Positions 38,654 to 42,589 of a DNA stretch of 64,000 nt are shown here, one piece after another; position 1 is the first letter of the stretch, and every line of letters starts with the position of its first letter. The notes beneath the pieces were generated by a model that had not been told where the DNA came from, made no database searches, and was given only the letters and a program-made list of their open reading frames with translations. Source of the stretch: Aurantibacillus circumpalustris (lineage in GTDB: Bacteria; Bacteroidota; Bacteroidia; B-17B0; Aurantibacillaceae). The translations under genes and the position numbers were made by a program. Location: NCBI RefSeq assembly GCF_029625215.1, contig NZ_CP121197.1, positions 3,596,001-3,660,000 on the forward strand, read 5' to 3'.

Positions 38654-41110
38654 TTAAAACTTCAAACTTATTCCACCCAAAAAATTAAGTGGAGCAGATG
38701 GGGCAAAATAGTTGTAAGTATAAAGCTTTGCGTCGGTATAGTAACTATATGTATAACCATTCGTTTCATATTTGGTATTAAGCACATTGTAAACACTTAA
38801 CATAAACCCAATTTCGGGTATTAATTTAGTTTTGATTGTGTAATTTAATCTGACATCTAAAACATTATAAGGCTTTATACTGCGTTTTACATTCGTTGTG
38901 TTGTCCAGATATTGCAGCCCCACATTTTTATCAATTAAAGATATTTCCAGGCCTTTAAGCGGTTTAATAGTGAGTACCAAAGAAGAAACGGTATTTGGAG
39001 AAAAAGAAATATCTGTGTTTCTATACTCATTTTTGTATTGAGTACTAATAGAATAATCTGCATTGCTGCTGTCGATGTATTCAACAAACTTTGCGATTTT
39101 ATTTTGTGATACAGCTAAGTTAGCACCTAAGGCCAAGTATTTGTTCAATTTAATATTCACCTCCACTTCAACACCTCGTCTATAACTGCTTGCAACATTA
39201 ACCCTATTATAAGCACCAACATTGTTAACTTGACCGTTAAGAACCAATTGATTTTTATATTGCATGTTATAAAAATTTGCCGAGAGCGTTATTTTTTTCT
39301 TTGTGTAGTGAGCTCCAGCTTCAATATCCATTAATTGCTCATGTTTTGGACGACTTTGAGGACTGCTTTGAACAAAATCGTCGCGATTAGGCTCTTTGTT
39401 TGCAAACGCAAGTGAAGCGTAAATATTTAAATTTTTATTAGCGTCATAGCTCAAACCAAACTTAGGATTAAAAAAAGTGTAAGACTGGATTTGTTTTTTT
39501 TCTTCTAAAAGATCATTGAATCCAACAAAAGTATAATCAACCTGCCTCGCCTGTAAATCCACAAAAACGTTCAGGTTAGAAAATGGTTTGTAATTTGTTT
39601 TTAAATAAGCATTTGCGTCATTCTTATTTGCAACATCCAAATAGTACTGATGATCAATTTCCGCGTTAGAGGCATATTGTGCCCACATCACTCTTCCAAA
39701 ATGCTTTCCAAAATAAGTATTGTAACCACCACCTAATGTGAACAATAACCGAGAATTGGCAGTATAATTAAAATTACAAATTGCTCCAGCAAAATCATTA
39801 TCTAACCATAAGCGGCGAATTAAATTTGTTTCTCTTATGGTATCGTCACCAATAATTACATTTTCTAGTCCATACTTTGAAAGTTTTGCCCCTGAGCCTC
39901 CTACTAAAGCTTCTTTTGCTGGGTTTTTATATTGTTCGTAATAACCTTTCCCTTTTGTATAGTGGGCTGTAATATTAAAATTCATTCTTGAATTCACTTG
40001 GTGAATAAAATGCAATTGAAAATTATTTTGTTTATAATTATCTGTTTCATTTTTGTAATGCTGCAATGCACCAGTAGCATCGTAATATTCACCGCTAGGA
40101 TTATAGGTGCGATTTCCATTCTTTATAGAATCTTCAGGCACGTAATACCAAGCTTGATAAGTTTTTTCCTGCCCTAGAAAATTAATAAATTTTAAAACTG
40201 ATTTTTTACCATAATAACCGGCTGCTATATAATACGACTGCAAATTTGATTTAGCTCTATCAATGTAACCGTTGCTCGAAATATTGGATGCTCTCGCGTC
40301 TAAAGTAAATTTATTATTTAAGAGTCCGGTGCCAGCCGCAAGTGTATTTCTAAGGGTTCCGTATGAGCCAGCTGTTGAAATCACATTTGCATAAGACTTG
40401 TCTTTCAAGTCGTTTGTTTGAAAATTAATAGTTGCCCCAAAAGAACCTGCTCCGTTGCTTGACGCACCTACACCGCGCTGTACTTGAATATTATTGGTGC
40501 TTGAAACCAGATCTGGCATGTCAACAAAATAAGAGCCTTGCGATTCAGCATCATTTATTGGTACGCCGTTAATTGTAACATTTATACGTGTTGCGTCGGA
40601 ACCTCTGATTCTAATACCTGTGTATCCGACAGCGTTTCCTGCATCTGAATTTACTACCACGTTTGATAATTGATTCAACATGTAAGGTGCGTCTTGCCCC
40701 GTGTTTTGTTTTTTCAGGGTTTCTGAATCAATATTATTATATGCCATTCCATTGCCTTTGTCTACCCTGGTTGCGTTCACAACAACTTCATCTAAGTTTT
40801 TGTTCGAAGCAATTAACACTGGGTTAAACTCAGCGTTTGCAATAATATTTATTGTATCTATCCCGTCTAAATACCCCACACTTTTAGTTGCGAGAATGTA
40901 GACATCGTTTTCTAGATTTTTAAATTTAAAGTTACCATCAGCGTCTGCGGTAGCTGCTAATTGCGTGTTTTTTAGTCCTACAATGGCAAAAGGAATTGGT
41001 TCTCCGTTATTTGTTTTTACTTGCCCTGAAAGCGATAATTGAGCTTTCACACTCAAAGAGCAAACGAATGCGCCGGCGAAAAAAGCCCTTGCGATTTTTT
41101 TGTTTTTCAT
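38654..41110 (-). CDS. TonB-dependent outer-membrane receptor, probably for thiamine
   Basis: The 818-residue protein has a signal peptide (cleaved near Ala-Gln, residues 23-24), a carboxypeptidase-regulatory-like beta domain (about 27-110, LSGQVKTNNGEPIPFAIVGL), a plug domain (about 115-230, IRIRGSDATRINVTINGVP) and a 22-strand-type barrel ending in Phe. The energy-coupled import substrate is not readable from the protein. A TPP riboswitch precedes the gene, so thiamine or a precursor is the likely ligand, as for riboswitch-controlled receptors in Bacteroides. No pnuT or thiamine kinase gene follows; the transcript ends at a hairpin. Confidence 0.9.
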   Translation of the reverse strand: MKNKKIARAFFAGAFVCSLSVKAQLSLSGQVKTNNGEPIPFAIVGLKNTQLAATADADGNFKFKNLENDVYILATKSVGYLDGIDTINIIANAEFNPVLIASNKNLDEVVVNATRVDKGNGMAYNNIDSETLKKQNTGQDAPYMLNQLSNVVVNSDAGNAVGYTGIRIRGSDATRINVTINGVPINDAESQGSYFVDMPDLVSSTNNIQVQRGVGASSNGAGSFGATINFQTNDLKDKSYANVISTAGSYGTLRNTLAAGTGLLNNKFTLDARASNISSNGYIDRAKSNLQSYYIAAGYYGKKSVLKFINFLGQEKTYQAWYYVPEDSIKNGNRTYNPSGEYYDATGALQHYKNETDNYKQNNFQLHFIHQVNSRMNFNITAHYTKGKGYYEQYKNPAKEALVGGSGAKLSKYGLENVIIGDDTIRETNLIRRLWLDNDFAGAICNFNYTANSRLLFTLGGGYNTYFGKHFGRVMWAQYASNAEIDHQYYLDVANKNDANAYLKTNYKPFSNLNVFVDLQARQVDYTFVGFNDLLEEKKQIQSYTFFNPKFGLSYDANKNLNIYASLAFANKEPNRDDFVQSSPQSRPKHEQLMDIEAGAHYTKKKITLSANFYNMQYKNQLVLNGQVNNVGAYNRVNVASSYRRGVEVEVNIKLNKYLALGANLAVSQNKIAKFVEYIDSSNADYSISTQYKNEYRNTDISFSPNTVSSLVLTIKPLKGLEISLIDKNVGLQYLDNTTNVKRSIKPYNVLDVRLNYTIKTKLIPEIGFMLSVYNVLNTKYETNGYTYSYYTDAKLYTYNYFAPSAPLNFLGGISLKF

Positions 41111-41138
41111 TTTTTTATTTTCTTTTTAATTAAACATA

Positions 41139-41158
41139 TTGATACAGGGGTGTATCAA
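41139..41158 (-). promoter_or_regulatory. expression-platform hairpin of the TPP riboswitch
   Basis: An 8-base perfect stem TTGATACA/TGTATCAA closes a CCCC loop (minus-strand reading) between the aptamer and the receptor start codon. The loop region CACCCCT is complementary to AGGGGTG at the 5' strand of aptamer helix P2. The two could therefore pair when TPP is absent and separate when it is bound. Confidence 0.5.
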
Positions 41159-41160
41159 CT

Positions 41161-41357
41161 TTTAATTAGTTTTCCCTCCGCACGAATTACCGTGATCAGG
41201 TGTTTAACAGCAAATGTTGGTCATTTAACTGTTAACGGGTTTAATCTCAGCCTTATGAAATTAAAAATGTAAAATGAAGAATGTAAAATGAAAGATTATA
41301 GTAATTTTTCATTTTCCGACTTTTAATTTTTAATTTCTTAAAGCACCCCTTAAGACG
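41161..41357 (-). promoter_or_regulatory. TPP (THI-box) riboswitch with an extended P3 arm
   Basis: Read on the minus strand, all conserved THI elements occur in order: AAGGGGTGC (41344-41352), GGCTGAGA (41245-41252), ACCC (41237-41240), ACCTGATCACGG, the TAAT loop closed by CACG/CGTG (41178-41194), and CGGAGGGAA. P3 is unusually long: CTTTAAGAAATTAAAAAT pairs with ATTTTTAATTTCATAAGG, with about 60 extra bases beyond, including a 14-base direct repeat. The element sits 50 bases before the TonB receptor, which it should repress when thiamine pyrophosphate is abundant. Confidence 0.93.
41266..41292. repeat. two direct 14-base repeats inside riboswitch P3
   Basis: AATGTAAAATGAA occurs at 41266-41278 and again at 41280-41292. 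The copies lie in the variable distal part of P3, so the expansion does not disturb the ligand-binding core. Confidence 0.7.
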
Positions 41358-41416
41358 CCGCAAAAGTACATTGTGTAAATGGATTGTGCAAAAAAATATT
41401 TTGAGTAACAGAAATA

Positions 41417-42589
41417 ATGCTCAGTTTTGCACCAATGAAAGACAAAAAACGCATTGCCGTTATTGGAAGTACAGGGAGTATTGGAACACAGGCCCTTGAA
41501 GTTATTAAAGAACATTCAGAATGCTTTGAAACAGAAGTTTTAGTAGCCCATTCAAATGCAGATCTATTAATTAAACAAGCATTAGAACTTAATCCCAATG
41601 CGGTTGTGATAGGTGACGAATCAAAATACGCGCAAGTAAAAGAAGCCTTAATTCCTCACGATATAAAAGTATTTGCTGGTGCAAAAGCTGTTGAACAAAT
41701 TGTTGAGATGGAAACCATTGATCTTGTGTTAGCCAGTATTGTTGGATATGCGGGGCTTGCAAGTACCATCAATGCCATTAAACATAAAAAACAAATTGCC
41801 CTGGCCAATAAAGAAACGATGGTAGTTGCGGGCGAGTTGGTAACAAAACTTGCGCTCGACAATGCCGTAAATATTTATCCCGTTGACAGCGAACATTCGG
41901 CTATTTTTCAATGTCTTGCTGGTGAGTGGGAAAATAAAGTAGAAAAAATTTACCTCACAGCTAGCGGTGGTCCGTTTAGAGGTAAAGACAAATCATTTTT
42001 AGAGACCGTAAAAAAAGAACAAGCTTTAAAACATCCTAACTGGGTGATGGGCTCTAAAATCACTATCGACTCTGCAAGTCTTATGAATAAAGGACTGGAA
42101 GTAATTGAAGCAAAGTGGCTATTTAACTTAGAAGTAAATCAAATTGATGTGATTGTGCATCCCCAAAGCATTGTGCACAGTCTTGTTCAGTTTGAAGATG
42201 GTAGCATGAAGGCGCAGATGGGTTTGCCAGATATGAAATTACCAATTCAATATGCCATGGCTTATCCTGAACGTTTAAAAAATAATTTTCCTCGATTCAA
42301 TTTTCTTAACTATCCGAATCTAACTTTTGAAAAAGCAGATATGGAAGCGTTTCCCAACTTGGGACTTGCCTTTGAAGCCATTAAAAAAGGCGGTAACATG
42401 CCCTGTGTTTTAAATGCGGCTAATGAAATTGTTGTGCAGGCCTTTTTGGAGGATAAAATTGGTTTTTTGGAAATGAGTAGTGTTATTGAAAAAACCTTAT
42501 CAAAAGTGGCTTTTATTAAATCGCCTGGGTATTCGCAATACATAGACAGCGATAGAGAAGCGAGGATTTTGGCGACAGAATTGATCTAA
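41417..42589 (+). CDS. dxr: 1-deoxy-D-xylulose-5-phosphate reductoisomerase
   Basis: The 390-residue enzyme converts DXP to 2-C-methylerythritol 4-phosphate, the committed step of the non-mevalonate isoprenoid pathway, using NADPH and a divalent metal. Seen are the nucleotide motif IGSTGSIGTQAL, the metal/substrate block VDSEHSAIFQCL, GPFRG with the following catalytic loop, and LMNKGLEVIEAKWLF. The length is normal. ATG at 41435 (MKDKKRIAVIG) gives the more typical N-terminus and may be the true start. Confidence 0.97.
   Translation: MLSFAPMKDKKRIAVIGSTGSIGTQALEVIKEHSECFETEVLVAHSNADLLIKQALELNPNAVVIGDESKYAQVKEALIPHDIKVFAGAKAVEQIVEMETIDLVLASIVGYAGLASTINAIKHKKQIALANKETMVVAGELVTKLALDNAVNIYPVDSEHSAIFQCLAGEWENKVEKIYLTASGGPFRGKDKSFLETVKKEQALKHPNWVMGSKITIDSASLMNKGLEVIEAKWLFNLEVNQIDVIVHPQSIVHSLVQFEDGSMKAQMGLPDMKLPIQYAMAYPERLKNNFPRFNFLNYPNLTFEKADMEAFPNLGLAFEAIKKGGNMPCVLNAANEIVVQAFLEDKIGFLEMSSVIEKTLSKVAFIKSPGYSQYIDSDREARILATELI

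Follow-up and report, generated by a model that had tools for sequence, protein, structure and literature searches.

On the minus strand of the 64,000-nucleotide stretch of Aurantibacillus circumpalustris DNA analysed here (the window; contig NZ_CP121197.1, positions 3,596,001 to 3,660,000), the gene for a TonB-dependent receptor is preceded by an element that, judged from its sequence, is a real TPP riboswitch of a new structural variant, and for which ligand binding is predicted. We estimate a probability of about 0.6 that this element is a TPP-sensing OFF switch for an outer-membrane receptor of thiamine or a related compound, operating through competition for a single strand. While TPP is bound, the 5' strand of P2, whose GGGG lies near the 5' end of the mRNA, would be kept in P2; without TPP, it would be captured by a CCCC hairpin loop that sits about 40 nt upstream of the start codon, in a long-range kissing or pseudoknot interaction that would represent the ON state. 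At the junction, an extra helix in J2/4 may serve structurally in place of P1, and the output would be translation initiation, not termination or mRNA decay. Comparison with relatives supports the aptamer motifs, the extra helix, the hairpin, the complementarity of loop and P2 with its compensatory changes, and the position of the loop relative to the start codon.

The comparisons draw on an anchored search that yielded 149 unique elements from 205 loci; 51 of the loci gave no element, among them receptor orthologues such as L042, L052 and L054. Receptor-type elements number 121; for 67 of them a BLASTP match to the window's receptor (E < 1e-20) confirms the type, and the others were assigned because they lie in DNA retrieved from upstream of a receptor match, or by hand (L028, L029, L070 and L081). 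The names given to non-receptor genes (thiS-like, thiM-like, pnuT-like) come from reading ORFs, the gene at L020 is of no assigned kind, and some start codons are mis-assigned, for instance in L051, L081 and L089.

Aptamer motifs, covariance-model score and thiamine genes

The receptor gene (38654-41110, minus strand) encodes a protein of 818 amino acids with the Pfam domains CarbopepD_reg_2, Plug and TonB_dep_Rec_b-barrel, Plug (36.6 bits) and the barrel (76.1 bits) each scoring above the Pfam cut-off. The start codon is at 41110, and the 3' end of the aptamer lies 62 nt upstream of the gene. All features of the leader are likewise on the minus strand. A predicted promoter, TTTG-N20-TACTTTTG (41361-41392), was read from the sequence by its resemblance to what we take to be the Bacteroidota -33/-7 consensus, and transcription would start a few nucleotides downstream of it. 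The opposite strand carries dxr, encoding DXP reductoisomerase, at 41417-42589, pointing away from the riboswitch leader. Both isoprenoids and thiamine derive from DXP, and the proximity of dxr to the leader is probably a coincidence.

The earlier note had proposed that the THI-box elements stand upstream of the receptor gene, and the motifs it named are indeed found there: P2 with CTGAGA and ACCC, and P4-P5 with ACCTGA and GCGNAGGGA. The P2 5' strand, AGGGGTG, is at 41344-41350. It is followed by the P3 region (41251-41343), which by its fold has a long AT-rich extension that varies among relatives, the spacing from GGGG to CTGAGA ranging from 14 to 101 nt across 78 elements. The conserved J3/2 motif and the P2 3' strand ACCC together form CTGAGATTAAACCC (41237-41250), recognised from the sequence and from relatives, and P4-P5, with ACCTGATC...GCGGAGGGA, was placed at 41173-41201 by the cmscan alignment and the sequence.

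A covariance-model scan for the THI element, suggested in the earlier note as a check, does return RF00059 at 41156-41235 (28.9 bits, E=6.7e-4, cmscan, 341-base search), but below the Rfam gathering score of 54.3 bits. In an Rfam scan of the whole window no RNA family except one tRNA reached its gathering score, and across the genome, a single contig of 4.6 Mb, the element is the sole RF00059 match at E <= 10. The low score is attributable to structure, because, besides a long P3, the element has a covarying J2/4 helix that is missing from the Rfam model; cmscan places the J2/4 hairpin on the 5' half of the model, so that in our reading the score understates the match. Matches to RF00059 at E <= 0.1 occur in 78 of 87 genomes of the window's family, and in 31 of the 87 they exceed the cut-off; the best receptor-leader match placed in the family reaches 51.1 bits (G032:C46). 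Thirty of the family's 36 above-cut-off matches were fetched as loci and examined: tblastn found no receptor sequence near 29 of them, the lone exception being L028, where a receptor lies nearby, behind a pnuT-like gene. The curated cut-offs thus have a blind spot in this family.

A score under the threshold would also be expected of a degenerate TPP riboswitch that has lost its response to TPP, as would the shortening of P2 by a G-A at its end (AAACCC) and the lack of a canonical P1 in the window. Such decay is very improbable, given that 50 sequences show no variation in CTGAGA and ACCTGA and almost none in GCGNAGGGA, and that the design is common to the receptor orthologues of the family. 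Further, ThiC was not found in the genome (the control was positive in 13 of 14 genomes), making regulated uptake plausible; the organism is likely to be ThiC-less and to depend on thiamine uptake. PF04263 thiamine pyrophosphokinase was not found in the genome either, with a control that was positive in 7 of 14 genomes.

The genome encodes a single PF04973 (PnuC/PnuT family) gene, at 833375-833905, adjoining a TMP-TENI-like gene that scores above the Pfam cut-off and has a second, sub-cut-off match adjacent to it. This PF04973 gene is taken as PnuT because its start is similar to those of the pnuT-like ORFs that follow TPP elements in genus g7; the genome-wide RF00059 search found no TPP riboswitch match at it. 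Hence the earlier claim that the receptor lacks the pnuT partner seen in Bacteroides holds locally but not for the genome, and the accessible part of one paper likewise lists the receptor (BT2390) and pnuT-tnr3 (BT2396-2397) of B. thetaiotaomicron as separate operons (PMC5613172). In genus g7 (L028, L029, L083, L084) a pnuT-like ORF and a receptor lie close together, each behind its own TPP element, and the J2/4 insertion is present only in the element of the receptor. The thiamine specificity of the window's receptor is a prediction from the riboswitch and from context, including that of genus g7.

Two other loci have unusual arrangements. At L025 (G074, C58:172676-173280), three RF00059 matches of 41.9, 62.3 and 67 bits start about 250 nt apart, which suggests a tandem triple TPP riboswitch; tblastn found no receptor near the three matches. 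At L020 (G033:C199), a TPP element with an 8-bp P1 is followed by a GC-rich hairpin and a T-run, and by its sequence looks like a terminator-type switch.

The J2/4 insertion and P1

In the window, J2/4 (41202-41236) is 35 nt long and contains an extra hairpin with an ACCAA loop and arms at 41228-41235 and 41204-41211. Neither this helix, nor the lack of a canonical P1, nor the conservation among relatives had been remarked on in the earlier note. Within the window's family (f1), the insertion is present in all 47 receptor elements recovered (28-42 nt in 46 of them, 16 nt in one) and in none of the 28 non-receptor elements, where J2/4 is at most 7 nt throughout; inside the family, as far as these elements show, the insertion therefore goes with the gene and not with the genome. 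In the other families of the class, J2/4 is at least 16 nt in 33 of 74 receptor elements and at most 7 nt in 41. More extreme are the receptor-associated TPP elements of family f40 (L119, L126, L127, L131 and L144), with J2/4 of 85-98 nt.

Covariation identifies the insertion as a helix. RNAalifold gave ten pairs, every one with changes on both sides (for instance, one pair is CG in 24, AU in 15, UA in 7, GU in 2 and other in 2), in an alignment of 50 of 55 sequences, from which L056, L099, L109, L153 and L188 were omitted as the most divergent in J2/4 length or sequence. The first four pairs are kept in all 40 unique f1 sequences, with up to five pair types, and the pairing does not hold in those 40 when the registers are shifted by one. 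The mean fold energy of J2/4 is -10.4 kcal/mol, against -3.1 kcal/mol for mononucleotide shuffles (54 sequences). The apical loop is CCAAA in 19 of 60 sequences, with variants such as ACCAA, CTCAA and ATCAA, and such conservation suggests that the loop may make a tertiary contact. A phylum-wide search with a J2/4 model, R1, matched 217 of 296 genomes, a count that is no measure of how far the insertion has spread, because most matches listed span about 47-48 nt and are aptamers without the insertion.

No canonical P1 is visible in the window, the only candidate being TTAA/TTAA, seven nucleotides from P4, and the predicted promoter near P2 would leave space for only a few P1 nucleotides. Among 28 insert-type receptor representatives the P1 score is 8.49, compared with 7.95 when the 5' flank is shuffled, and a P1 of at least 5 bp can be formed in some register in 8 of the 28, with a clear 7-bp P1 in L157. 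For 11 non-receptor representatives the corresponding scores are 11.38 and 8.03, with at least 5 bp in 10 of 11, and for 31 receptor representatives without the insertion they are 8.51 and 7.33. The extra J2/4 helix may stand in for P1 in the junction.

Complementarity of the hairpin loop and P2

Between the aptamer and the start codon lies the expression-platform hairpin (41127-41168), defined by folds and by the stem pair types in relatives, with outer arms at about 41161-41168 and 41127-41134, inner arms at 41151-41159 and 41138-41146, and a CCCC loop at 41147-41150. The earlier note had pointed out that CACCCCT (41146-41152) is complementary to AGGGGTG of P2, and this is borne out both by the 7 bp in the window, with a duplex energy of -11.7 kcal/mol, and by compensatory flank changes in relatives.

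Of 65 insert-type receptor leaders, 53 contain a C[CT]CC motif somewhere between aptamer and start codon, compared with 8.4% for mononucleotide shuffles; for the other leaders the figures are 43 of 55 and 20.8%. The 12 insert-type leaders without the motif include L110 and L132. The motif is at -36 to -47 in 37 of 45 unique f1 insert-type leaders, the eight outside this range including mis-assigned starts and TCCC in place of C[CT]CC. The best anti-P2 site, determined for 64 insert-type elements, lies at a median of -40 relative to the start codon (IQR -42 to -39); the mean probability that its bases are unpaired in the downstream fold is 0.94. By MFE, the site is in a hairpin loop in 18, paired in 7 and unpaired in 3 of the 28 insert-type receptor representatives. 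In the stem beside the C-rich site, the second position pairs in 71 of 74 elements and the third in 67, with six pair types each, whereas the 74 of 74 at the first pair arises partly by construction, since the best loop offset was picked for each element. With the offset chosen in the same way for flank shuffles, the stem reaches the 5% level in 53 of 74 elements.

Since the P2 GGGG hardly varies, support for the long-range pairing has to be sought in the flanks. For 59 cluster representatives, whose lineages are related and not fully independent, matched loop:P2 partners score 16.78, compared with 14.92 when partners are permuted (z 7.1, 0 of 5000 permutations). The insert-type representatives alone give z 3.7 (n=28) and those without the insertion z 5.3 (n=31). 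When the flank of each element is itself shuffled, so that composition effects drop out, the score is 14.88 (z 6.2), with 37 of the 59 above the mean of their own shuffles and 22 not; a flank from further upstream gives 14.76, and a reversed leader 13.57, the real one being better in 45 of 59 with 2 ties. Compensatory pairing is exemplified by TAAACAGGGG/CCCCTGTTTA in L060, ACTGGGGTG/CATCCCAGT in L069 and GCATTCGGGGTG/CGCCCCGGATGC in L193. For the 11 non-receptor representatives the permutation is not significant (z 1.6, p 0.058), and the own-flank test gives z 10. An alternative loop partner, AGGGA of the P4 3' strand, gave no signal (11.98 vs 12.00 shuffled).

In a dinucleotide-shuffle analysis the duplex energies of receptor elements were -11.5, compared with -10.9 with swapped 5' strands; a median of 12.5% of shuffles was as good for receptors, and the 5% level was reached in 43 of 117 receptors and 20 of 28 others. 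This comparison is little informative because the shuffles retain C runs. Taken across the class, the comparison supports the loop:P2 interaction, and the conserved complementarity makes the pairing a credible switch element, as had been suggested, with a predicted effect on expression.

Expression platform and known systems

In the modelled folds of the window RNA, the start codon and the A-rich spacer are unpaired in both states, and simple occlusion therefore does not explain OFF. For the same reason, the step from loop:P2 pairing to expression is put forward here as a prediction. The P2 state, at -59.7 kcal/mol, equals the open state (-48.0) plus the loop helix (-11.7), with the kissing penalty and pseudoknot topology excluded. 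As the MFE loop comprises only CCCC, the 7-bp kiss requires opened stem pairs, taking the hairpin from -9.9 to -5.6 kcal/mol.

The MFE fold of the window retains P2 and the hairpin together, which would also suit an ordinary TPP riboswitch in which the complementarity of loop and P2 is incidental and control is exerted by an undetected conventional sequester or terminator. Such control has some precedent among the receptor elements that lack the long insertion, where 17 of 52 have an anti strand that pairs with the start region (mean start-codon pairing probability 0.62). We consider it quite unlikely for the window's element, since among insert-type receptor leaders the anti strand pairs with the start region in just 1 of 64 (mean 0.32), the C-rich site is at a near-fixed distance with compensatory flanks, and, on reading the sequence, neither a long U-tract after the window hairpin nor a canonical terminator was seen. 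The non-receptor leaders of the family behave differently: their anti-P1/P2 strand (CATTCCTAAAGT against ACTTTAGGGGTG in L019, for instance) is paired to the start region in 15 of 28 leaders, and the mean start-codon pairing probability is 0.76. Their biosynthetic platform would be a standard translational strand exchange that sequesters the start codon, whereas in the insert-type receptor leaders a hairpin loop, at a near-fixed distance, displays the anti strand. A candidate OFF helix in the window MFE, pairing UCUU at the 5' end of the leader with AAGA before the start codon, is not supported as conserved; over 59 elements the leader-to-start pairing is 8.60, against 8.26 with the leader shuffled and 9.06 with the start region shuffled, and partner permutation is weak (p 0.034).

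Control could instead be transcriptional, with the loop:P2 pairing or the free hairpin setting pausing or Rho-dependent termination before the receptor gene. The 3' arm of the hairpin is U-rich, and for the thiC riboswitch of E. coli, according to the part of that report consulted, a regulatory pause within the region of translation initiation is important (PMC5234074). This is unlikely in view of the near-fixed distance between site and start codon and the lack of a visible terminator; moreover, as far as the available text goes, the mRNA of those B. thetaiotaomicron transport operons that carry predicted TPP riboswitches does not change significantly with thiamine (PMC5613172). The distance and the unchanged mRNA together favour translation initiation as the output. 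The unchanged mRNA fits post-transcriptional control and could equally mean that transport is unregulated.

The reading favoured here has a more specific form, in which the J2/4 helix replaces P1 and ligand-controlled kissing between the P2 strand and a hairpin loop some 40 nt upstream of the start codon regulates initiation, with neither a Shine-Dalgarno sequence nor occlusion of the start codon. This form is tentative, at slightly under even odds. To our knowledge, the Bacteroidota phylum is without Shine-Dalgarno signals. The proposal amounts to a defined strand exchange for uptake genes that can be put to the test, with a counterpart for biosynthetic genes, and suggests how such switches could act in bacteria without the usual ribosome-binding signal.

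With the E. coli thiM and thiC riboswitches (RF00059) the window element shares CTGAGA in J3/2, ACCC in P2, ACCTGATC...GCGNAGGGA in P4-P5 and a gene context that is probably of the thiamine type; it differs in the covarying J2/4 helix, the lack of a canonical P1, the loop-presented anti-P2 strand and the fact that no start-codon sequestration is seen. A second parallel is with pseudoknot riboswitches that we take, from the references given, to be of the cobalamin class, in which ligand binding favours the pairing. These riboswitches, in the passage concerned, use a pseudoknot between a C-rich loop and a sequence outside the aptamer core, and so resemble the window element in pairing a C-rich loop across the boundary of aptamer and expression platform (PMC2258182). 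Unlike in the cobalamin class, the C-rich loop of the window is part of the expression platform and would act in competition with P2.

Rodionov 2002 may refer to facultative stem-loops. Neither a J2/4 helix nor a loop:P2 pairing was found described for TPP riboswitches in the open-access literature consulted, including the accessible parts of PMC5613172, PMC13273304, PMC2258182, PMC3766115, PMC9723704, PMC6847099 and PMC2211319. THI-regulated omr genes, encoding btuB-like outer-membrane receptors, were reported in 2007 with reference to work of 2002; they too have a TPP riboswitch upstream of an outer-membrane receptor, and the available passages mention neither structural variants nor mechanism (PMC2211319). 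In B. thetaiotaomicron, TPP riboswitches precede OMthi, pnuT-tnr3 and thiSEGCHF-tenI, and the sections available term the mode of action of TPP riboswitches in Bacteroidetes uncertain and, in describing the elements, mention no loop:P2 pairing or J2/4 helix (PMC5613172). The OMthi locus described there is nonetheless like that of the window, with a TPP element before the gene of a TonB-dependent outer-membrane transporter, apart from pnuT (PMC5613172, same sections).
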